This document shows, one piece after another, positions 18,557 through 28,737 of a stretch of DNA of 33,707 nucleotides. The notes below the pieces were generated by a model. That model searched no databases. It saw nothing but the letters and a program-made list of their open reading frames with translations, and was not told the DNA's origin. Each line of letters begins with the position of its first letter. Position 1 is the first letter of the stretch. The stretch is from Curvibacter sp. GWA2_64_110 (lineage in GTDB: Bacteria > Pseudomonadota > Gammaproteobacteria > Burkholderiales > Burkholderiaceae_C), in NCBI GenBank assembly GCA_001797315.1, contig MGPC01000019.1:1-33707 (forward strand). The letters are read 5' to 3'. Position numbers and translations under genes: made by a program.

Positions 18557-19801
18557 TCAGGCTTTGATCTTGAAACTGTCGGCGTATTTCTTCGGGTCCT
18601 TGCCGTCCCAGACCACGCCGTCGATGAGCTTGCTGGTGCGCATGACGTCCTTGGGCACAGGTACCTTCATGGCCGAGGCGACCTGTTTGTACAAGTCGAT
18701 CTGGTTGATCTGCTTGGCGACAGTCAGGTAGTCCGGGTGCTCTTTGATCAGACCCCAGCGCTTGTGCTGGGTCAGGAACCACATGCCGTCGGACAGGTAA
18801 GGGAAATTCACCTGGCCGTCGTTGTAGAACTTCATGTGGTTGGGGTCGTCCCAGGTCTTGCCCAGCCCGTTCTGGTAGCGCCCCAGGATGCGCTGATTGA
18901 TGGCGTCGACGCTGGTGTTGATGTAGGACTTCTGCGCCACCGTCTCGGCCATCTTCATCTTGTTCGACAGGCTGGCGTCGATCCACTGGCTGGCTTCGAG
19001 CACCGCCATCATCACGGCACGGGTAGTGTTGGGGTACTTCTTGACGAAGTCGGCCGTGGTGCCCAGCACTTTTTCCGGGTGGTCCTTCCAGATGTCCTGC
19101 GTGGTGTTGGCGGTAATGCCGATGCCGTCCATGATGGCGCGGTGGTTCCACGGCTCGCCGACGCAGAAGCCATCCATATTGCCCACACGCATGTTGGCCA
19201 CCATCTGCGGCGGCGGCACGGTGATCAGCTTGGCACCACTTAGCGGGTTGATGCCGGCTGCAGCCAGCCAGTAGTGCATCCACATGGCGTGGGTACCGGT
19301 GGGGAAGGTGCCGGCAAAGGTGTATTCCCGTTTTTCCTTGGCCATCAGCTTGGCCAGCGAGGGGCCGTCCACGGCGCCTTTGTCGGCCAGGGCTTTGGAC
19401 AGTGAAATGGCCTGGCCGTTGTTGTTGATGCTCATCAGCACCGCCATGTCCTTCTTCGGGCCGCTGATACCCAGGTGCACACCGTAGACCAGGCCGTACA
19501 GCACATGGGCCATGTCCAGTTCGCCGTTGACCAGTTTGTCGCGCACGCCGGCCCAGCTGGCTTCCTTGCTGGGGGTGATCTTGACGCCGTACTTCTGGTC
19601 GAAGCCCAGCACCGAGGCCATCACCACGCTGGCGCAGTCGGTCAGCGGGATGAAGCCGATCTTCACTTCCTTCTTCTCCGGGGCATCGGAGCCGGCGGCA
19701 TAGACGGCGGCGCGCAGGGCGGGGTCGATGCCGAGGGCACCGACAGCGGCGGTTTGCAGCACGGTGCGGCGGCTGAGTTTGGCATTCAGAAGATCAGGCA
19801 T
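18557..19801 (-). CDS. nrtA: Nitrate ABC transporter substrate-binding protein, Tat-exported
   Basis: A 414-residue NrtA that binds nitrate in the periplasm and delivers it to NrtB/NrtD. The N terminus carries a twin-arginine signal (LSRRTVLQTAAVGALGI, Arg11-Arg12). The mature part shows NrtA-type blocks: KIGFIPLTDCASVVMAS, ELDMAHVLYGLVYGVHLG, FAGTFPTGTHAMWMHYWLAAAG, NMRVGNMDGFCVGEPWNHRAI and SDGMWFLTQHKRWGL. AAGGAG six bases upstream favours ATG 19801 over the adjoining GTG at 19804. It is first gene of the transport operon, behind a sigma-54 promoter, twin hairpins and a terminator, so its expression should need both nitrogen limitation and nitrate. Confidence 0.95.
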   Translation of the reverse strand: MPDLLNAKLSRRTVLQTAAVGALGIDPALRAAVYAAGSDAPEKKEVKIGFIPLTDCASVVMASVLGFDQKYGVKITPSKEASWAGVRDKLVNGELDMAHVLYGLVYGVHLGISGPKKDMAVLMSINNNGQAISLSKALADKGAVDGPSLAKLMAKEKREYTFAGTFPTGTHAMWMHYWLAAAGINPLSGAKLITVPPPQMVANMRVGNMDGFCVGEPWNHRAIMDGIGITANTTQDIWKDHPEKVLGTTADFVKKYPNTTRAVMMAVLEASQWIDASLSNKMKMAETVAQKSYINTSVDAINQRILGRYQNGLGKTWDDPNHMKFYNDGQVNFPYLSDGMWFLTQHKRWGLIKEHPDYLTVAKQINQIDLYKQVASAMKVPVPKDVMRTSKLIDGVVWDGKDPKKYADSFKIKA

Positions 19802-19825
19802 CACAAGCTCCTTGAGTCAACGAAG

Positions 19826-19894
19826 AAAACAAAAAAGGCGTCCTCACGCGACTTGCACGTCATGCAGACGGTGCAAACCTGTGGGGACGCCTTT
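19826..19894 (-). terminator. Leader terminator of the nrtA operon (antitermination target)
   Basis: In the RNA, AAAGGCGTCCCCAC (19894-19881) pairs with GTGAGGACGCCTTT (19847-19834), 13 of 14 bp, with an inner TTGCAC/GTGCAA hairpin. TTTTTTGTTTT follows (to about 19826). It ends about 25 bases before the nrtA ATG. The lower stem GGCGTC/GACGCC resembles that of the nirB leader terminator. Confidence 0.92.
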
Positions 19895-19902
19895 GTCCGG
19901 AT

Positions 19903-19954
19903 TCGGCAGTCCCATCCGCCGTTGGATGGCCCTGCCGAGTGACCTTCATTGGTC
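19903..19954 (-). promoter_or_regulatory. Two-hairpin ANTAR target in the nrtA leader
   Basis: P1 (19954-19941): GACC, loop AATGAA, GGTC. P2 (19929-19912): CCATCC, loop AACGGC, GGATGG, on a lower stem TCGGCAG/CTGCCGA (19938-19932 and 19909-19903). Both loops have six bases with A at position 1 and G at position 4, the known ANTAR signature. P1 begins at about +4 of the predicted transcript. Binding by NasR should prevent formation or action of the terminator at 19826-19894. Confidence 0.88.
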
Positions 19955-19965
19955 TTGTTTAAGAC

Positions 19966-19983
19966 AAAGCAATGTTTGTGCCA
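19966..19983 (-). promoter_or_regulatory. Sigma-54 promoter of nrtA
   Basis: Minus-strand TGGCAC-AAACA-TTGCTTT (19983-19966) is a full match to the -24/-12 consensus. With C19969 at -12 the transcript starts near 19957, three bases before the first ANTAR hairpin. Confidence 0.9.
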
Positions 19984-20000
19984 GATATATTGAGCGCTGT

Positions 20001-20058
20001 TTTGCTATTGTTTCTATAGCGTATGGCGCTTATTTCACATGGCCTGGAGCCAGATTTC
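20001..20058. repeat. Comamonadaceae-type short repeat, copy D, upstream of the nrtA promoter
   Basis: TTTGCTATTGTTTCTATAGC, then GTATGGCGCTTATTTCACAT, then GGCCTGGAGCCAGATTTC. It is the most complete copy in the window and lies between the nrtA promoter and the NtrC-like site at 20077. Confidence 0.75.
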
Positions 20059-20076
20059 TTGCCCAGGTCGCAGGGG

Positions 20077-20093
20077 TGCACCTGTTTTGTGCG
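20077..20093. promoter_or_regulatory. NtrC-like enhancer site for nrtA
   Basis: TGCAC-CTGTTTT-GTGCG fits the NtrC dyad TGCAC-N7-GTGCA with one mismatch. It lies about 120-136 bases upstream of the predicted nrtA start, a usual distance for NtrC acting on a sigma-54 promoter. Confidence 0.65.
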
Positions 20094-20129
20094 GCGCACC
20101 AAAAGTGAAAAGGCGGCCGTGCGTTGTGC

Positions 20130-21401
20130 TTACAGCAGATCGGCTGCGTCGAGCATGAGCTGCGCCACTTCCACCAGCTTCAGTCCCTTGTCCATGGCGG
20201 TTTTGCGCAGCTTGTCGTAGGCGGCCTGTTCGCTCAAGGCCTGACGCTGCATCAGCAGGCCCTTGGCCCGGTCGATCAGTTTGCGTTCGTTGAGGCTGGC
20301 TCGCACGGTGTCGAGCTCGTCGCCCATGGTCTGCAGGCGCCGGGCCTGTTCCTGCACCAGTTCCAGGATCGAGCGCTCCAGCTGCAAGCCGTAGCCCTGG
20401 GCCGGCACACCAAAGCCGGGTGTCGCCGCCCCCGGGGCGCTGGCGGGCGTGGCCGCATCCCGGAAAAAAGACAGCGCATCGGCTTCGCGGGTGGTGGTGG
20501 CGTCGAGTGCCTGGTAGGCCTGCAGGTCGCGGCTGGCAGCGGTGATTTTTTCTTCGCAGACCCGCAACAGGTCGTGTGCGAGCTGGTCTTCCACGACTTT
20601 CATGCAATCGATCCGCTGGCTGCAGCAGTTGAACCAGACCTGGCTCTGGCCGGCGTCGAGTGCGGCGCCGTCCGCGGCCGTGCCCAGGATGCGTCGCATG
20701 CGCTCCAGCTCCGCCAGCGTCGCGCGGTCCTGGCTCTGCGCCCACAAGGCGCCGACCTGGGCGTTGGAGAACTCGGCGAACACCTGCAGGCAGCGCTCCT
20801 GGGACTCGATCAGGTGCAGCAGGCGCTGTTGTTCGCCTGCCGTGGCATGCCCCGAGGCGAACAGGGCCGAGCCGACGGCGCGCTCCTGGCCAGCGAATTC
20901 CTTGCCCTGCATGAAATTGAACAGGGCCACCAGCAGGCGCGAGACCTCGGGGTCGCAGGCGCTGTCGGCGGCTTCGAACACCACCGCCAGCAGCCCGGCG
21001 ATCAGCCGGACATAGGCATCGGTGGCCTGCCGGGCGGTCCAGCGCAGGGCGTCGATCTGCTGGCGCAGCGCAGGCAGGGCGTCCAGCCCGTGCAGCACAT
21101 AGGCGATCCGGCTGAACAGCCGGGCCCCATGGCCCACGCGGTCGGATTCGGTGTCCAGCTTGTCGAAACAGGCGCGCAGCTCGGCTTCGATCTGCCGGCA
21201 CTCGTCGATCTGCTGCGCGCGTGCCTTGGCAAAGCGCGTTCCCTGGGAGCCCAGGTAGAGGTTGGACAAGCCGCGTTCGCGCTGCAGGCCGTGCACCAGG
21301 CGCCCGGACACGTTCACCAGCGCGCTGGTGAGCGCGAGCTGCTGCAGCTCGGCGATTTCGCAGCGTTTGGCTGCAACCAGAAAATTAAGACCCGATTTCA
21401 T
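20130..21401 (-). CDS. nasR: Nitrate-responsive antiterminator, NIT-ANTAR protein
   Basis: A 423-residue NasR-type regulator. Residues about 40-290 form the all-helical NIT domain that senses nitrate/nitrite (GLQRERGLSNLYLGSQG near its start), and residues about 335-420 the RNA-binding ANTAR domain (LNERKLIDRAKGLLMQRQALSEQAAYDKLRKTAMDKG). In Klebsiella, NasR with nitrate stops termination in the nasF leader. Here two matching leaders, before nrtA and nirB, are present in the same locus. The start is either ATG 21401, which overlaps the stop of a 33-codon upstream ORF, or TTG 21407; neither has a clear ribosome binding site, so coupling via ATG 21401 is preferred. The gene runs in the same direction as nrtA, 328 bases upstream of it. 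Confidence 0.93.
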   Translation of the reverse strand: MKSGLNFLVAAKRCEIAELQQLALTSALVNVSGRLVHGLQRERGLSNLYLGSQGTRFAKARAQQIDECRQIEAELRACFDKLDTESDRVGHGARLFSRIAYVLHGLDALPALRQQIDALRWTARQATDAYVRLIAGLLAVVFEAADSACDPEVSRLLVALFNFMQGKEFAGQERAVGSALFASGHATAGEQQRLLHLIESQERCLQVFAEFSNAQVGALWAQSQDRATLAELERMRRILGTAADGAALDAGQSQVWFNCCSQRIDCMKVVEDQLAHDLLRVCEEKITAASRDLQAYQALDATTTREADALSFFRDAATPASAPGAATPGFGVPAQGYGLQLERSILELVQEQARRLQTMGDELDTVRASLNERKLIDRAKGLLMQRQALSEQAAYDKLRKTAMDKGLKLVEVAQLMLDAADLL

Positions 21402-21499
21402 GCGCAATGGAACAAAGTGTGGCGATGGAGCTTAGCAGCAAGGGTGACCACGCCGGACTGCGCTTCGACCACGATGACGAGATGCACCAGATCCATCAT
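21398..21499 (-). CDS. Possible 33-codon upstream ORF coupled to nasR
   Basis: ATG 21499 is preceded by a good ribosome binding site (AGGAAAG, 21507-21502) and opens a 33-codon frame (MMDLVHLVIVVEAQSG...) whose TGA overlaps the nasR ATG at 21401 (ATGA). nasR has no ribosome binding site of its own, so translational coupling is plausible. I do not recognise the peptide. A sigma-54-like match at 21511-21526 would start transcription right at this ATG and remove the ribosome binding site, so the two readings compete. Confidence 0.4.
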   Translation of the reverse strand: MMDLVHLVIVVEAQSGVVTLAAKLHRHTLFHCA

Positions 21500-21552: not shown

Positions 21553-21557
21553 CAGGC

Positions 21558-21656
21558 GTGCTCCGGGGTGCGATCCTGCCGTGATGGCGGGATGGCTGAG
21601 ATGGTGAAGCCGAACCCGCGAACTTGACTCGGATCATGCCGACGTAAGAAGAGCTG
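21558..21656 (+). promoter_or_regulatory. TPP (THI-element) riboswitch
   Basis: The conserved thiamine pyrophosphate aptamer is plain: CCGGGGTGC (21563-21571), GATGGCTGAGATGG (about 21591-21604), GAACCCGCGAACTTGA (about 21612-21627) and CTCGGATCATGCCGACGTAAG (about 21628-21648, closing part), with a short P1 stem GCTC/GAGC (21560-21563 and 21651-21654). It precedes the LuxE-like gene by about 75 bases. No U-run terminator follows, so control is likely at translation start or through Rho. TPP should lower expression of the whole operon. Confidence 0.93.
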
Positions 21657-21731
21657 TCAGGAACAAGCGTCCCGCCCTGCCACCCCTTTCGGAGCACCCG
21701 TGCGAAGCACACCACCGGAAGAAGGGCGAAC

Positions 21732-22862
21732 GTGAACGAAACCTCCACAGCGACACAAGCCAAGGCCAGCGGTCTGGATGACGCGCTGGTGGCCGATCTG
21801 CTGGCCTTCATCGCGCAGCCCGACTCGACCGACGACACCTTCAACGCGCTGGCCCTGCGCCTGTTTGCCCACCAGTTCCAGCACAACGCCGCCCTGCAGC
21901 GTTATTGCCAGCAGCGCGGCCGCACGCCGCGTACCGTGAAAAGCTGGCGCGACATCCCGGCCGTGCCGATCAACGCTTTCAAGGACCTCACCTTGAGCTG
22001 CGTGCCGCCGCGGGACTGCGCGCGCGTCTTCATGACCAGCGGCACCACGCGCGGCGACATCAAGGGCCGGCACTACCATCCGCATCTCGCGGTGTACGAC
22101 CGCTCCATGACGCTCAATTTCCGCCAGCGTTTCATGGCCGGGCAGGACAGGCTGCGCTTCGGGCTCCTGTTCCCCGACGAACAGCTCATGCCCAATTCCT
22201 CGTTGGCGCATTACCTGGCGCTCGCCTTGCAGCAGTTCGGCACAGCCGAGAGCCGCTACTTCCTGGATCAGGACGGCCTGCAGCTCGAAGACCTGTGCGA
22301 GACGCTGACGCAGGTGCAGCGCACGGGCGAGCCCTTCGCCTTGCTCGGCGCCAGCTACAGCTTCGTGCACCTGATGGACGCGCTGCAGGCGAGTGGCCTG
22401 CAATTCCAGCTGCCGGCCGGCAGCCGGCTGCTCGACACCGGCGGTTTCAAGGGCCAGTCGCGCGAGATGGACATGGACGCGTTCTACGTCCAGCTCTCGG
22501 CCACCTTCGGCGTGCCGCGCAGCCAGTGCATCAACATGTACGGCATGACCGAGCTCAGCACCCAGTTCTACGACAACGGCAACGCCGTGCTGCCCGCCGT
22601 CAAGTCCGGCCCGCACTGGATCCGCTCGCGCCTGCTCGACCCCTTGAGCGGGCAGGAGGTGCCGTTTGGCGAGCGCGGCATCCTGGCGCATTGCGACCTG
22701 GGCAACTTCAATTCGGTCACCACCATCCTGACCGAGGACGTCGGCGTGGCCGTGGAGGGGGGCTTCCTGCTGCTGGGCCGCGCCCAGGGCGCGCAGGCCA
22801 AGGGTTGCTCGATTGCGGTGGACGATTTCCTGCGGGCGGCACAGAGCGGAGCCGCGGCATGA
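21732..22862 (+). CDS. LuxE-like acyl-protein synthetase
   Basis: A 376-residue member of the LuxE/acyl-protein synthetase family, relatives of adenylate-forming enzymes that activate a carboxylic acid with ATP and hold it as a protein thioester for a reductase. Motifs: phosphate loop MTSGTTRG (Thr102-Thr106 region), LLDTGGFKGQSRE (about 233-244), and NMYGMTELSTQFYD (Tyr270 region). Cys359 in KGCSIAVDDFL near the C terminus is the likely acyl acceptor by analogy with LuxE. The start is GTG 21732, with GAAGG upstream. The gene follows the TPP riboswitch and overlaps the next gene by ATGA. Luminescence genes are absent, so the acid is not expected to be a luciferase substrate; a thiamine-related carboxylate is my inference. 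Confidence 0.88.
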   Translation: MNETSTATQAKASGLDDALVADLLAFIAQPDSTDDTFNALALRLFAHQFQHNAALQRYCQQRGRTPRTVKSWRDIPAVPINAFKDLTLSCVPPRDCARVFMTSGTTRGDIKGRHYHPHLAVYDRSMTLNFRQRFMAGQDRLRFGLLFPDEQLMPNSSLAHYLALALQQFGTAESRYFLDQDGLQLEDLCETLTQVQRTGEPFALLGASYSFVHLMDALQASGLQFQLPAGSRLLDTGGFKGQSREMDMDAFYVQLSATFGVPRSQCINMYGMTELSTQFYDNGNAVLPAVKSGPHWIRSRLLDPLSGQEVPFGERGILAHCDLGNFNSVTTILTEDVGVAVEGGFLLLGRAQGAQAKGCSIAVDDFLRAAQSGAAA

Positions 22863-24316
22863 CGATGAAAACCGTCGCGGCTTATCTGCCGGGCTTGCCG
22901 GCCGATCAGGTGCAGTGGCAGATGCTGCGCTTTGGTGCGGGCGCGGACGGTGTCGAAGTGGCGGTGCCGCAGCTGACGCCGGCGCAGCTGACGGCCCTGG
23001 CCGCGCATGTGCGCGAGGCCGGCCGCGAACGCCTCAAGCGCATGCCGGTGTCTCAGATCATCGCAGCCATCGACCGCGCCATCGCTCGCCTGCTGGATGC
23101 CGACGACCCCTACCGCATCGAGGCCGAGCGCTTGCTGCCCTGGGTGAGTGGCTTCGATGCCGAGATGGTGCGCCTGGGCCTGAATGCCTACCTGAAGACC
23201 TTCCGCGCGCCGCAGCTGCAGCGCTTCGTGGCCGAGGACTTCGCCAACCCCAAGCTGCTCGACGAGTTCCAGCCGCGTCCCAAAGGCGGCATGGCACGGG
23301 CACTCGGGCCGGAACTGCTGGTGCACGTCTGGGCCGGCAATGTGCCGGGCCTGCCGCTGTGGAGCCTGGTCTGTGGCCTGCTGGTCAAGGCACCGGGCAT
23401 CGGCAAGGTGGCCAGTGCCGAGCCCGTGTTCGCCGCGCTGTTCGCGCGTTTGCTGGCCGAGGTCGAGCCGCAACTGGCCGATTGCCTGGCCGTGCTCTGG
23501 TTCAAGGGCGGCGATACGGTGAGCGAGAAAACCTTGTTTGGCGAAGCCGATGTGGTGCTGGCCTACGGCGGCAACGACACGCTGAGCCAGCTGCGCCAGC
23601 AGGTGACGATCGGCACGCGCTTCCTGCCGCACGGCCACAAGCTCAGCCTGGGCCTGGTGTCCAGTGCGGTGCTCGATGCCCAGCATGCCCAGGCGGCAGC
23701 GCGCCAAGCCGCACTCGACGTGGTGCGCTACGAGCAGCAGGGCTGCTACTCGCCGCATGTGTTTTATGTGGCCCGCGGTGGCCGTGTGACGCCGCGCGAG
23801 TTCGCTCAGGCACTGGCCGGCGAACTGGCCGCGCTGCAGCACAAGTTCGCGCGTCGCACGCTGTCGCTGGAAGAAGCCGCCAGTGTGGCCGGCTGGCGCG
23901 AGCGGCAGGAACTCCAGGGCTTTTCGCAAGCTGGCGTGGAACTCATCGGCGATGCCACGGCACCGTGGTGCGTGGCCTATACGGAGGAGGCCGGTGCACT
24001 CCAGCCCTGCGCCCTCAACCGCACGGTGCAGGTGCAGGCGGTGGAGCGGCTGGACGATGCCATGCCGCTGGTCGCTGCACAGCGCGAGATCCTGCAGACG
24101 GTGGGGCTGGCCGCGGCGCCGCACGAGTTGTACGCCCTGGCGGAAGCACTGGGGCAGGCCGGTGCCACCCGCATCTGCGCCCTGGGTGCCATGACCGCGC
24201 CCGAGGCCGGCTGGCACCACGACGGGCGCTTCAGCCTGCTCGACCTGGTGCGCATGGTCGAGCTGGAGCAATCGGCCGAGAACGCGGCCGAGGCCTACGC
24301 GCCGTATCGGGATTGA
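22859..24316 (+). CDS. LuxC-like acyl-CoA/acyl-protein reductase
   Basis: A 485-residue LuxC family protein, which reduces an activated acyl group (thioester) to the aldehyde with NAD(P)H on an aldehyde-dehydrogenase-like fold. Visible are HVWAGNVPGLPLWSLVCGLLVK (nucleotide-binding region), VVLAYGGNDTLSQLRQQV, and the catalytic cysteine Cys296 in YEQQGCYSPHVFYVA. The start ATG 22859 overlaps the LuxE-like stop (ATGA), which points to translational coupling and a LuxE-LuxC complex as in luminous bacteria. The downstream gene begins 5 bases after its stop. A longer frame upstream is only read-through of another frame. The substrate is unknown. Confidence 0.9.
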   Translation: MTMKTVAAYLPGLPADQVQWQMLRFGAGADGVEVAVPQLTPAQLTALAAHVREAGRERLKRMPVSQIIAAIDRAIARLLDADDPYRIEAERLLPWVSGFDAEMVRLGLNAYLKTFRAPQLQRFVAEDFANPKLLDEFQPRPKGGMARALGPELLVHVWAGNVPGLPLWSLVCGLLVKAPGIGKVASAEPVFAALFARLLAEVEPQLADCLAVLWFKGGDTVSEKTLFGEADVVLAYGGNDTLSQLRQQVTIGTRFLPHGHKLSLGLVSSAVLDAQHAQAAARQAALDVVRYEQQGCYSPHVFYVARGGRVTPREFAQALAGELAALQHKFARRTLSLEEAASVAGWRERQELQGFSQAGVELIGDATAPWCVAYTEEAGALQPCALNRTVQVQAVERLDDAMPLVAAQREILQTVGLAAAPHELYALAEALGQAGATRICALGAMTAPEAGWHHDGRFSLLDLVRMVELEQSAENAAEAYAPYRD

Positions 24317-24321
24317 ATGCC

Positions 24322-25077
24322 ATGGCCTTCCTCGACATGCAAGGCGTGAGCTACACCTACCCCGGCTGGCCGCCGGTGGTGCAGCGCGTGGACTGGGACA
24401 TAACGCAGGGCGAGTTCCACTGTCTGGTGGGGCGCAGCGGCTGCGGCAAGACCACGCTGCTGAAGCTGGCCGCTGGCCTGCTGCAGCCCGACGAGGGCCA
24501 GGTCAGCCTGCAAGGACAGGCGGTGCGCCAGCCCGGGCCGGGCACGGGTTTCGTGTTCCAGGCCCCCACGCTGCTGGACTGGCTGACCGTGCTGGACAAC
24601 GTGCTGCTGCCCGTGACCTTGCAGCGCCAGCCCACGGCGCAGGACGTGGCGCGCGCCGAACAGTTGCTGGCGCAGATGGGCCTGGTTGCTCATGCCGGCC
24701 ATTACCCGCGCCAGCTGTCGGGCGGCCAGCAAAGCCGCGTGGCGATTGCGCGCGCGCTGGTGCTGGAGCCGCCCATCCTGCTGATGGACGAGCCCTTTGC
24801 CGCACTCGATGCCATCACGCGCGAGGAGCTGCAGGATGAGCTGCAGGCCATGTGCCGCGCGCGCGGCACCTCGGTCTTTTTCGTCACGCACGACATCGCC
24901 GAGGCGGTGTACCTGGCCGACCGGGTGGCGGTGATGGAGGGCGGGCGCATCCGGCACGACATCCGCGTCGAACTGCCGCGTTCGCGCACGCAGGACGTGC
25001 GCTACAGCGCCGCCTTCAACGCCCTCTGCGCTGAGCTGCGGCGGGCCATGGACATGGACGAGGAGGTGGCCGCTTGA
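24322..25077 (+). CDS. ABC transporter ATP-binding protein (nitrate/taurine/ThiZ-like)
   Basis: A 251-residue ATPase of an importer. Walker A is GRSGCGKTT (37-45), signature LSGGQQSRVAIARAL (from Leu132), Walker B ILLMDEPFAALD (Asp156-Glu157) and the switch region FFVTHDIAEAVYLADR. Together with the permease and NMT1/THI5-like protein downstream it matches the ThiXYZ type of transporter, predicted to bring in hydroxymethylpyrimidine or a related thiamine precursor. The riboswitch upstream supports that. It starts 5 bases after the LuxC-like gene. Confidence 0.92.
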   Translation: MAFLDMQGVSYTYPGWPPVVQRVDWDITQGEFHCLVGRSGCGKTTLLKLAAGLLQPDEGQVSLQGQAVRQPGPGTGFVFQAPTLLDWLTVLDNVLLPVTLQRQPTAQDVARAEQLLAQMGLVAHAGHYPRQLSGGQQSRVAIARALVLEPPILLMDEPFAALDAITREELQDELQAMCRARGTSVFFVTHDIAEAVYLADRVAVMEGGRIRHDIRVELPRSRTQDVRYSAAFNALCAELRRAMDMDEEVAA

Positions 25078-25835
25078 AATACCCGCGTCTCCTCGCTTTC
25101 GCGCTGCTGGTCGTCCTGCTCGCACTCTGGGAAGCTGCCGTGCCGGCCTTCCGCTTCTCCGCGCTCGTGCTACCCGCGCCCAGTGCCATCGGCACAGCCC
25201 TGTGGCGCGGCTTTGCGACCGGCTACTTCTGGCCGCACATCGGGCAGACCCTGCTGGAGCTGGCGCTGGGCCTGGGTCTGGGCGTGGTGCTGGGTTTTGC
25301 CGGCGGCGTGCTGCTGGGCGAATCGGCCGCGCTGCGCCGCGTGTTCATGCCCTATGTGGTGACCAGCCAGGTCGTCCCGAAGCTGGCGCTGGTGCCGCTG
25401 TTCATCGTCTGGCTGGGCTTCGGCACCGCGCCCACGGTGCTCATCACCGCGCTGATCTGCTTCTTCCCCCTGCTGGAGAACACGCTGACCGCTGTGGCGC
25501 AGGTGGATGCCGCACGGCTCGAGCTGTTCCGCATGCTGGGCGCGAGCCGCTGGCAGACCTTGTGGCGACTCAAGATTCCGGCCGCATTGCCAACGATCCT
25601 GGCCGGCCTGCGCGTGGCCGTGGTGCTGGCGCTGGTGGGTGCCGTGGTGGGCGAGTTCATCGGTGCCAGCCGCGGCCTGGGTGCGCTCATCATCGCCTCG
25701 CAGGCGTCCATGGACACGGCGCTGATGTTCGCTGCGCTGGTGCTCATCACGGGCATCGGTCTGCTGCTGTACGAAGCCGCACTGCTGCTGGAGCGGTGTC
25801 TGCTCCAACCCTATTCCAACCCCAAGTCAAACTGA
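25074..25835 (+). CDS. ABC transporter permease (ThiX-like)
   Basis: A 253-residue integral membrane protein of the BPD_transp_1 type with about six helices (LLAFALLVVLLALWEAAV, LLELALGLGLGVVLGFAGGVLLG, VLITALICFFPLLENTLTAV and more) and the EAA loop LGASRWQTLWRLKIPAALPTILAGLR. It starts at TTG 25074, overlapping the ATPase stop (TTGA), with an ideal AGGAGGT six bases before, so the unusual start codon is well supported. It should import the ligand of the next gene's binding protein. Confidence 0.92.
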   Translation: MKYPRLLAFALLVVLLALWEAAVPAFRFSALVLPAPSAIGTALWRGFATGYFWPHIGQTLLELALGLGLGVVLGFAGGVLLGESAALRRVFMPYVVTSQVVPKLALVPLFIVWLGFGTAPTVLITALICFFPLLENTLTAVAQVDAARLELFRMLGASRWQTLWRLKIPAALPTILAGLRVAVVLALVGAVVGEFIGASRGLGALIIASQASMDTALMFAALVLITGIGLLLYEAALLLERCLLQPYSNPKSN

Positions 25836-25857
25836 ACCCGAAAGAGGACACAAGGAT

Positions 25858-26853
25858 ATGAAACGCAACACCCTGCACATGCTGGCCGCCATCGCGCTCG
25901 CCGCCCTGGGCGCCGGCACGGCCCTGGCCGATGAACCCAAGCTGGAGAAAGTCACCATTGCCGGCTGGGGCGGTCCGATTTCCGAGATCACCAACATCCT
26001 GGTCGAGCCCGACAAGGGCTTCTTCCGTGCCCGCGGCATCGAGCTGGTCTACATGCCCGGCGCGGGCGGTGGCGACGCGGTGCGCAACCTGCTCAGCGGC
26101 CAGGCCGACGTGGCCTTCACCGATCCCGGCTCCTTCTACGGCGGGCTGGACAAGGGCGAGAAGCTGCGCGCCGTCTACGACATCTACCCGCAGAACGTCT
26201 TCAACGTGGTCTCGCTCAAGAGCGCCAACATCAGCAAACCGGCCGACCTCAAGGGCAAGAAGATCGGCGTCTACAGCCTCTCCAGCGGCACCCTGACCAA
26301 CTTGCAGCTGCTGCTCAACCAGGCGGGTCTGAGCACCAAGGACGTGACCATCGTCGTCACGGGTCTGCTGAACTTCGCGCCGCTCATGCAGGGGCAGGTG
26401 GACGCCACCGCCGCCACCGACACCGGCCTGCTCGTGGCGCGCGCCAAGGGCGTGGGCGATGTGAACGTGATGGAGGTGCGCCACTCGCTCAACCTCTCCA
26501 GCGATCTCTTCATCGTGCGCGAGGACACCTTCCAGCAGAAGAAGGACCTGCTCAAGCGTTTCCTCGCCGCCTACCGCGACAGTGCGCAGTGGATGATCGA
26601 CCACCCCGAGGAGGCCGCCAAACTCGCCGTCAAGCGCGCCATCAACGGCCAGAACGAAGCCGTGAACCTGGAGGTGATCAAGCTGCGCAACGCCACCAGC
26701 ATTTCGCCGCTGACGCAGCAGAAAGGCCTGGGCGCGATCGACGTGGACATGCTGCAGAAGGGCGCCCGGGCCTGGAAGCAGATCGGCCTGATCGAGCGCG
26801 ACCTGGACATGAAGGCCGTGGTCAGCCAGGACCTGCTGCCGGGCCGGAAGTAA
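25858..26853 (+). CDS. NMT1/THI5-like periplasmic substrate-binding protein (ThiY-like)
   Basis: A 331-residue binding protein with a Sec signal peptide (MKRNTLHMLAAIALAALGAGTALA, cut before DEP). The mature part shows the NMT1/SsuA pattern: VTIAGWGGPISEITNILVEPDKGFFRARGIEL, LLSGQADVAFTDPGSF, LKGKKIGVYSLSSGTLTNLQLLL. This family binds pyrimidines, sulfonates or other small anions. Position under a TPP riboswitch points to a thiamine precursor or breakdown product. There is no cysteine in the mature part, so it is not a lipoprotein or a THI5-type HMP synthase. The start ATG 25858 has AAGGA/GAGGA upstream. Confidence 0.92.
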   Translation: MKRNTLHMLAAIALAALGAGTALADEPKLEKVTIAGWGGPISEITNILVEPDKGFFRARGIELVYMPGAGGGDAVRNLLSGQADVAFTDPGSFYGGLDKGEKLRAVYDIYPQNVFNVVSLKSANISKPADLKGKKIGVYSLSSGTLTNLQLLLNQAGLSTKDVTIVVTGLLNFAPLMQGQVDATAATDTGLLVARAKGVGDVNVMEVRHSLNLSSDLFIVREDTFQQKKDLLKRFLAAYRDSAQWMIDHPEEAAKLAVKRAINGQNEAVNLEVIKLRNATSISPLTQQKGLGAIDVDMLQKGARAWKQIGLIERDLDMKAVVSQDLLPGRK

Positions 26854-26856
26854 GCC

Positions 26857-27624
26857 ATGGACTTCAAGGGCCAGGTCATCCTCGTCACCGGCGCCAGCCG
26901 CGGCATCGGCGCGGCCATCGCGCAGGCTTTCGCGGCCGAAGGCGGCTTCGTGATCGTCAACTACCTGCGCAACGAGGCCGCGGCTGAAGAAGTCGTCGCG
27001 CGCTGCAAGGCGTTGGGCGGCGACGCCTGGGCCATCCGGGCCGACGTCAATGACCCGGTGCAAGTGCAAGCCATGGTGGCGCAGGTGCTGGCCGAGGTGG
27101 GGCGCATCGACGTGCTGGTGAACAACGCCTTCGCGCCCTACCGCTTCGACCCGGAGCAGCGCAAGCGCTTCTGGGAACTGGACTGGAGCGACTACCAAGG
27201 CCAAGTGGACGGCGCCGTGCACGCGACCTACAACCTGTGTCAGGCCGTGTTGCCGCACCTGCGCCAGCGTGCGCAGGGTTGCATCGTCAACCTGGCGAGC
27301 GACCTGGTGGCGCGGCCGGTGGTGCCGTACCACGATTACGCGACCGCCAAGTCGGCGCTGGTGGGCTTTTCCCGCAACCTGGCGGCCGAGCTGGGACCCT
27401 TGGGCATCCGCGTCAACTGCGTGGCGCCGGGCCTGGTCTATCCGACCGACGCCAGCCGTGCGACCAAAGAGGACGTGAAAGAGGCGATCGTGGCGCAGAC
27501 CCCGCTACGCCGCATCGCCACGCCGGCCGACGTGGCCGGGCCGGTGCTGTTCCTCGCCTCCGACTGGAGCCGCTTCATGACCGGGCAGGTGCTCTATGTG
27601 GACGGCGGGCTGGTGATGCAGTGA
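26857..27624 (+). CDS. Short-chain dehydrogenase/reductase, last gene of the thiamine-regulated operon
   Basis: A 255-residue classical SDR. The cofactor loop is TGASRGIG (11-18), the second motif is NNAF (89-92, usually NNAG), and the catalytic set is Ser148, Tyr161 and Lys165 (YATAK). The C terminus TGQVLYVDGGLVMQ is FabG-like. It starts 3 bases after the binding-protein stop, so it belongs to the operon. I infer that it reduces the aldehyde made by the LuxC-like enzyme to an alcohol. From memory, an SDR near THI elements has been noted before in comparative work; this was not checked. Confidence 0.92.
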   Translation: MDFKGQVILVTGASRGIGAAIAQAFAAEGGFVIVNYLRNEAAAEEVVARCKALGGDAWAIRADVNDPVQVQAMVAQVLAEVGRIDVLVNNAFAPYRFDPEQRKRFWELDWSDYQGQVDGAVHATYNLCQAVLPHLRQRAQGCIVNLASDLVARPVVPYHDYATAKSALVGFSRNLAAELGPLGIRVNCVAPGLVYPTDASRATKEDVKEAIVAQTPLRRIATPADVAGPVLFLASDWSRFMTGQVLYVDGGLVMQ

Positions 27625-27687: not shown

Positions 27688-28737
27688 ATGCGAAATAGGA
27701 TGCTGGGGTCCCTGGTTCTGTTGTTCAGTGTCACGGTGGCGCAGGCCGAAACCTTGCCCATGATCGATACCCATATGCACTTCGAGTCGGTGCCGTACAT
27801 GGACTTGGACGGCTCGCGCAAGACCGCCTTGGTCGAGATGGACCGCCGTAACATTCGCATGTCCCTGCTGATGTCGCCGCCGCGTGACAGCTTTGTCGCC
27901 AAGCGCAATCAGGATGTTGAGGAGCTGATGCCGGCTGTCAAAGCCAATCCCGACCGCTTTGCCGTGCTGGGCGGGGGTGGTTCGCTCACCATCATGATCA
28001 ATGCCACGCCGGCCGATACGGTGAACGACGAGCGGCGCAGCGAGTTCCGCAAGCGGGCCGAGCGCATTCTGGCGCTGGGCGCGGTGGGCTTCGGCGAGAT
28101 GTTCATCCAGCACTTGTCGCTGCCAGCCATGGGGCCGGGACACGCCTATGAGAACGTGCCGGCCGACCACCCTTTGCTCATGCTGCTGGCCGACATCGCG
28201 GCCGAACACGATGTTCCGATCGACATGCATTTCGACATGGTGCCGCAGGACATGCCGCTGCCGCCCAACCTCATGAGCCACAGCCCGCCCAATCCGGCAC
28301 AACTGACGGGCAACCGGGCCGCCTTCGAGGCGCTGCTGTCGCACAACCCCAAGGCGAAGTTCGTCTGGGCCCATGTCGGCTTCGAACCGTTGCTGACACG
28401 CGGGCCGACGATAGTGCGCGAGATGCTGCAGGCCCATCCCAACCTCTACATGAGCTTTCGTCTCAACCGTGGCGGTCCCAAGCAACCCATGGCCATGGAC
28501 GCAGAAGGGCGGCTCAAGGACGAATGGTTGGTGCTGATACGCGAGTTCCCGGACCGCTTCATGTTAGGCAGCGACGCCTTCTACGCCGCCGGCGAACGGG
28601 TGGCGCGCGGCGCAAGCGGCCAGGGGCTGGACAATCTGCGCGGATTGGTCGACCAACTGCCGCCGGATCTGGCGCGCCGCGTGGCCAGCGACAATGCAGC
28701 CTTGATCTACAAACTGAAATTTTCATCCGGGAACTGA
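27688..28737 (+). CDS. Exported amidohydrolase family protein
   Basis: A 349-residue TIM-barrel amidohydrolase (amidohydrolase_2 type) with a Sec signal peptide ([10 protein letters not shown], cleaved before Glu21). Metal ligands are seen in IDTHMHFE (His29, His31), [17 protein letters not shown] and the late Asp of [11 protein letters not shown]. Members hydrolyse or decarboxylate various ring compounds; the substrate is unknown, and the periplasmic location is less common for this family. ATG 27688 has AAGGAG. It lies 63 bases after the SDR and probably has its own promoter, so membership of the thiamine regulon is open. Confidence 0.87.

Follow-up and report, generated by a model that had tools for sequence, protein, structure and literature searches.

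A TPP-linked LuxE-LuxC-importer-SDR module as a candidate salvage route for the thiamin pyrimidine

A stretch of 33,707 nucleotides from Curvibacter sp. GWA2_64_110 (contig MGPC01000019.1, here called the window) carries a six-gene operon behind a riboswitch for thiamin pyrophosphate (TPP), in which genes for LuxE- and LuxC-like proteins are followed by those for an ATP-binding cassette (ABC) importer with its substrate-binding protein (SBP) and for a short-chain dehydrogenase/reductase (SDR). What do enzymes of the LuxE and LuxC families have to do with thiamin? The original prediction, made from the window alone, had proposed that TPP controls the salvage, by reduction, of an oxidised fragment of thiamin. 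Comparative genomics lends good support to salvage of this kind, with the reactions themselves still put forward as plausible steps. Among the three substrates that had been offered, the carboxylates of the pyrimidine, of the thiazole and of whole thiamin, we favour the pyrimidine because of a thiD gene inside some of the operons, a pattern of thiG presence with thiC absence and the relatedness of the SBP. The module looks like an undescribed salvage route for the thiamin pyrimidine: we consider it rather probable that, under TPP control, it imports a pyrimidine carboxylate, probably 4-amino-2-methylpyrimidine-5-carboxylate, and reduces it to hydroxymethylpyrimidine (HMP).

A conserved module behind a TPP riboswitch

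The features of the operon in the window are the following.

21554..21667, + strand: TPP riboswitch aptamer (THI element, RF00059); Rfam 52.8 bits, E 8.9e-10, model positions 1-105 of 105
21690..21697, + strand: 8-base exact complement of the aptamer's 5' P1 strand (21558-21565), a candidate switch
21732..22862, + strand: luxE-like acyl-adenylating enzyme, acyl-protein synthetase, with C-terminal Cys359; Pfam LuxE 4.8e-23
22859..24316, + strand: luxC-like acyl reductase with Cys295; Pfam LuxC 7.2e-88
24322..25077, + strand: ABC transporter ATPase, ATG at 24322; Pfam ABC_tran 9.9e-34
25074..25835, + strand: ABC transporter permease; Pfam BPD_transp_1 2.6e-29
25858..26853, + strand: SBP of the NMT1/THI5 family with a ThiY-like fold; Pfam NMT1 9.4e-49
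26857..27624, + strand: SDR, the proposed aldehyde reductase; Pfam adh_short_C2 9.1e-62

The five junctions are, in order, an ATGA overlap, a 5-base gap, a TTGA overlap and gaps of 22 and 3 bases, and their letters agree with the original prediction at every one. The riboswitch that it had reported is likewise borne out, the RF00059 covariance model being matched over its full length. The score lies 1.5 bits below the Rfam gathering score of 54.3 and a default scan of the window reports none; the equivalent elements in relatives exceed the gathering score. A genome-wide search finds three TPP elements in the source genome, namely that of the luxE operon (E 2.2e-9), one upstream of thiC and one in a thiD-thiO-thiG-thiE region. 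Here thiO and thiE were named from sequence, and the names of thiC, thiG and thiD are backed by an overlap of homologue with Pfam matches. The complementary stretch at 21690-21697 would suit a riboswitch switch, and TPP presumably represses the operon. Free folding of the leader was dropped as support for an expression platform, as shuffled sequences fold equally well as the whole leader (z -0.20).

Relatives were taken as the best 80 of at least 387 loci found in a genome scan with LuxE, and 13 TPP elements from outside these 80 served to build a covariance model (R1). With this model a riboswitch is found upstream of luxE in 76 of the 80 loci, in 73 of them at E ≤ 1e-3; among the four loci without a match, L048 and L055 start at most 26 bases from luxE and L096 starts inside a thiD fragment. 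An earlier Rfam scan had found TPP elements in 10 of 14 loci (L021 and L022 left out), and the remaining L010, L012, L013 and L017 gave a match with R1. Relatives devoid of the LuxE/LuxC genes had been named as an argument against the proposal; LuxC stands beside LuxE in 80/80. The six genes follow in the order of the window in 64 of the 66 loci whose sequence extends 5.3 kb or more past luxE, the two exceptions (L058, L093) being without the ATPase. The set of riboswitch, luxE, luxC, importer and SDR is a conserved module.

LuxE and LuxC exceed the cut-offs of their Pfam families (82.1 vs. 24.9 bits for PF04443 and 295.6 vs. 21 bits for PF05893) and lie far below those of the NCBIfam equivalogs of luminescence (69.9 vs. 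550 bits for NF052244 and 92.5 vs. 750 bits for NF052251). Cys359 of LuxE is invariant in alignments of 13 and 21 sequences, and its GCS motif aligns with the KGCSL motif of a solved LuxE (7xc6), the sole PDB sequence match of the protein at E ≤ 0.001; we take this C-terminal cysteine to be the acyl acceptor. Cys295 of LuxC, invariant in 16 aligned sequences, is presumably the nucleophile. In the SDR, which is 51-76% identical across eight loci of Proteobacteria and Bacillota, including members that share no ABC importer, Tyr161, Lys165 and T11-G12...G16-I17-G18 are invariant in eight sequences, in keeping with the YxxxK and TGxxxGxG motifs of classical SDRs.

The module occurs in Comamonadaceae, Alcaligenaceae, Azospirillum, Geobacillus, Metabacillus, Domibacillus and on a Priestia plasmid, and 8 of 399 genomes of the order carry it, the source genome counted. 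LuxE of the Bacillota with an ABC-type operon is 61-64% identical to that of the window. In a LuxE tree of 46 hand-thinned rows (midpoint rooting, bootstrap not settled) the five rows of these Bacillota form one starred clade inside an unresolved comb of proteobacterial lineages, and this nesting suggests that the module has moved by transfer. Its composition varies: Pantoea has TPP-luxE-luxC-SDR with the importer absent, two lactobacillus plasmids have TPP-permease-luxE-luxC-SDR, and in Niallia two TPP elements precede thiW, permease, luxE, luxC and SDR. The permease that replaces the ABC importer in Niallia and the lactobacilli is a nucleobase permease of the NCS2 type, whose score exceeds the cut-off of the purine/pyrimidine permease model but not that of the xanthine permease model (such scans of neighbouring proteins covered ten selected proteins with Pfam and five with NCBIfam). 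On a Pseudomonas silvicola plasmid (L022:8001-11252) luxE, luxC and SDR match in shifted-frame pieces downstream of a TPP element, a copy that is either decayed or affected by sequencing errors.

When LuxE was run by tblastn against plasmids, 37 records matched; 27 of them have an identity of at least 43%, the other ten one of about 28% or lower, and none lies between. Five divergent LuxE loci (24-28% identity) gave no TPP match at E ≤ 1. Divergent LuxE-LuxC pairs of this TPP-less kind (L173-L175) stand beside fatty-acid and transketolase genes in Rhizobium, beside an acyl carrier protein and a sugar transferase in Deinococcus, and beside a phenylacetate--CoA ligase family protein in Streptomyces. 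LuxE and LuxC may together form a unit of general use for the reduction of acids.

Thiamin genes in and around the module

In nine of the 80 loci (L070, L076, L079, L083, L084, L087, L097, L102, L103), and likewise in locus L014, thiD lies between riboswitch and luxE; a Pfam scan of L103 and L014 confirms its identity there. This operon-borne thiD is the only ThiD match above 300 bits in the genomes G240, G407, G411, G420 and G421, four of which have a second match of about 110 bits. A ThiE homologue follows shortly downstream of the SDR gene in six loci (L070, L084, L096, L097, L102, L103), thiO, thiG and thiE follow it in L072, and thiM-thiD-thiE do so in Metabacillus (L101); a thi gene stands beside the module in 28/80 loci.

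The content of thiC and thiG was recorded in 30 module genomes, chosen by us from those found; five more records in the ThiC search were plasmids and are not counted. ThiG is present in all 30 and ThiC in 23. The seven genomes in which ThiC was not found are G240, G401, G407, G409, G411, G420 and G421; five of them have the operon thiD, and all five tested genomes with an operon thiD are without ThiC. In the LuxE tree the tested carriers without thiC are split into two groups at the least, one made up of Ramlibacter and G240, the other of Limnohabitans and MOLA814; locus L037 belongs to a Limnohabitans genome for which no ThiC turned up. In a draw of 299 genomes from a single family, the module is carried by 8 of 13 that have thiG and lack thiC, by 18 of 188 that have both and by 1 of 98 without thiG. 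The difference between the first two classes is significant (Fisher p 2.3e-5) and persists if the genome on which the draw was centred is left out (7/12, p 1.1e-4). Five of the 13 thiG-positive, thiC-negative genomes are without the module.

The binding protein points in a similar direction. The SBP exceeds its Pfam cut-off (PF09084, 166.7 vs. 20.5 bits), and the two top Foldseek matches of its model (predicted local distance difference test, pLDDT, 89) are the thiamin-bound SBP 4nmy and the formylaminopyrimidine (FAMP) binder ThiY (3ix1), the latter with template modelling (TM) scores of 0.81/0.88 and 16% identity in the structural alignment.

Proposed reactions and competing explanations

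We assume that a pyrimidine carboxylate is brought in by the ThiY-like ABC importer, or by the nucleobase-type permease in Niallia and lactobacilli. LuxE would then use ATP to form the adenylate of the carboxylate and subsequently a thioester on its C-terminal cysteine. LuxC would accept the acyl group on its own cysteine and, with NAD(P)H as reductant, turn it into the aldehyde, which the SDR could convert to HMP; phosphorylation by ThiD and coupling to the thiazole by ThiE would follow. HMP as the product is fairly firm, and firmer than the identity of the acid, which we infer, as we do every single reaction and its direction. 4-Amino-2-methylpyrimidine-5-carboxylate is proposed because acid-to-alcohol chemistry leads from it to HMP in the fewest steps. 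Since the source genome has thiC, the module would there be an accessory, sparing salvage route. Whether a widespread, horizontally shared LuxE/LuxC/SDR relay provides the pyrimidine of thiamin independently of ThiC, through reduction of this acid, so that presumed HMP auxotrophs partly live on it, could in our estimate go either way; such auxotrophs would be freshwater and soil bacteria, for example the Limnohabitans and Ramlibacter carriers without thiC.

Several observations weigh against the salvage of a pyrimidine acid. The original prediction had suggested looking for co-variation of the module with the absence of thiC, and taken alone this absence is unlinked to it: thiC is missing in 9 of 27 module genomes vs. 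98 of 272 others in the 299-genome draw (Fisher p 0.84), and within 60 Ramlibacter genomes luxE occurs in 27 of 46 without vs. 6 of 14 with thiC (p 0.36). The plain association with thiC loss was accordingly rejected, and the link emerges once thiG is required (p 2.3e-5). Neither kinship nor assembly gaps are taken into account by the association tests, and genome completeness in the 299-genome draw is not given. Most carriers (23/30) as well as the source genome possess thiC, and one relative (L081) has no riboswitch even with filters off, its best score being 5.8 bits. The SBP matches that follow 4nmy and 3ix1 in Foldseek are 3qsl (ligand unknown), sulfonate and taurine binders and Thi5, and 3qsl is also the top match by sequence profile; because these proteins share the fold group and 3qsl comes first by sequence, the fold alone fails to fix the ligand. 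The SDR passes the NCBIfam model for 3-oxoacyl-ACP reductase (301.3 bits vs. a cut-off of 292). A search of the open-access literature under six names found no paper that mentions the proposed acid. Finally, the Niallia operon includes the thiazole-type S component ThiW, and the Metabacillus operon has thiM.

The last two genes, together with the position of the module beside thiO-thiG in many Comamonadaceae, would fit the salvage of an oxidised thiazole fragment such as 4-methylthiazole-5-acetate to hydroxyethylthiazole. We set this low, because ThiG is found in 30/30 module genomes and ThiC is missing in seven, because the module occurs in just 1 of the 98 thiG-negative genomes, and because the gene inside the operon in 9/80 loci is thiD and not thiM. 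Reduction of thiamine acetic acid, an acid of the whole vitamin, to thiamin is set low as well, if a shade less so: the top structural match of the SBP has thiamin bound, and the acid is a known metabolite, going by the title of a paper from 1970. Such a pathway would not depend on ThiD or ThiE, yet thiD stands at the head of the operon and several loci of the Ramlibacter type have thiE after it; the pathway would also leave the thiG-present, thiC-absent pattern unexplained, and the NCS2 permeases are of the nucleobase type. Least probable is a fatty-acid reductase operon, with true LuxE/LuxC function, that came under a TPP riboswitch by chance. The family names, the labels long-chain fatty acid--CoA ligase and acyl-CoA reductase that public records give to the module genes, and the NCBIfam label of the SDR all speak for it; the scores far below the luminescence cut-offs, the near-constant TPP element, the frequent thi-gene context and the five divergent LuxE loci without a TPP match speak against it.

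Somewhat more room, though still not much, has to be left for the HMP branch served by other chemistry, that is, by a different pyrimidine acid or by a precursor of a new route in place of a salvaged vitamer, for the genomic evidence settles the branch and not the compound. Against this, the full operon includes an importer, and the HMP carboxylate would fit acid-to-alcohol chemistry in the fewest steps. Reductive salvage of the pyrimidine carboxylate is the reading we retain, and the nucleobase permease that replaces the ABC importer in Niallia and the lactobacilli counts in its favour.

Related systems and neighbouring genes

One close counterpart would be the ThiXYZ/ThiY importers of FAMP with TenA salvage, which share with the module the TPP-controlled ABC uptake of a thiamin pyrimidine and the fold of the SBP; the module, in contrast, joins uptake to LuxE-LuxC-SDR reduction, and the identity between SBP and 3ix1 is just 16%. 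The LuxC-LuxE fatty acid reductase of luminescence (7xc6) has the Pfam families, the adjacency of the genes and the C-terminal cysteine motif of LuxE in common with the module, which differs from it by TPP control, by importer and SDR in place of luciferase genes and by scores far below the NCBIfam cut-offs. The ThiC HMP-P synthase feeds the same pyrimidine branch, and thiC is often under a TPP riboswitch, that of the source genome included; there the pyrimidine is made de novo, whereas import and reduction are proposed here, and both are present together in 23/30 module genomes.

The LuxE model (pLDDT 82) has PaaK phenylacetate (aromatic-acid) ligases as top Foldseek matches, which speaks for the proposed reading if at a modest TM score of 0.57, and 7xc6 is absent among the 50 matches listed. 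These matches include three structures of phenazine biosynthesis proteins (3l2k, 3hgv, 3hgu; weak, TM about 0.5), which we take to be EhpF. The EhpF/EhpG pair reduces a heteroaromatic acid. Like the module, it consists of an adenylating gene adjoining a dehydrogenase-family gene in one cluster; it belongs, however, to secondary metabolism and has no known TPP control. According to the accessible part of one report, AMP-binding ehpF lies beside ehpG of the aldehyde dehydrogenase family in one gene cluster (PMC11278526).

Searches of the open-access literature listed no title that deals with LuxE or LuxC in thiamin metabolism. In the one paper that combines LuxE, LuxC, thiamine and riboswitch, the lux genes serve, in its accessible portion, as a reporter and as probes on an array (PMC3219970). 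TPP-regulated transporters are described, in the available text of a survey, for almost all of the lineages it covers except Burkholderia, Ralstonia and three others (PMC3766115), and contiguous TPP elements upstream of HMP ABC transporters are noted for Bacillota in an extract from another (PMC12452182). A B1 survey lists no pyrimidine acid among the vitamers measured, as far as its accessible text goes (PMC10881298). In the part available of a study from 2025, Limnohabitans is without thiC, depends on imported pyrimidines and has ThiV, ThiY and/or CytX (PMC12637900). At a guess, an SBP of the window type might be tallied as ThiY in surveys of TPP-linked transporters.

Should the proposal be true, thiamin salvage would gain a reductive route beside the pathways already known, enzyme families familiar mainly from bioluminescence would acquire a function in vitamin metabolism, and water and soil could be examined for a new vitamer. 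The proposal likewise offers a likely function for genes that now bear the labels of a fatty acid ligase and an acyl-CoA reductase.

Other TPP elements accompany the thi genes of these bacteria. On contig C13 of the source genome (L004:6116-6222, + strand) one lies between a ferredoxin-reductase-like gene and thiD and points into the antisense strand of thiD, with thiO-thiG-thiE farther on. The layout is conserved, as it recurs in 4 of 6 fetched relatives (L167, L168, L171, L172); the element may drive thiO via a leader that runs antisense to thiD. L037 and nine loci like it have the luxE operon at precisely this position. Three loci have a second TPP element about 7 kb past the first and directly before thiO (L068:14816-14913, L074:13269-13366, L075:14776-14873).

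In the window, the minus strand upstream of the operon (18557-21407) encodes a nitrate-type binding protein (NMT1_2) and a nitrate-sensing ANTAR regulator (NIT plus ANTAR). An amidohydrolase gene (27688-28737, + strand) starts 63 bases past the end of the SDR gene and was left out as a member of the module, since it adjoins it in just 2/80 relatives (L025, L026).

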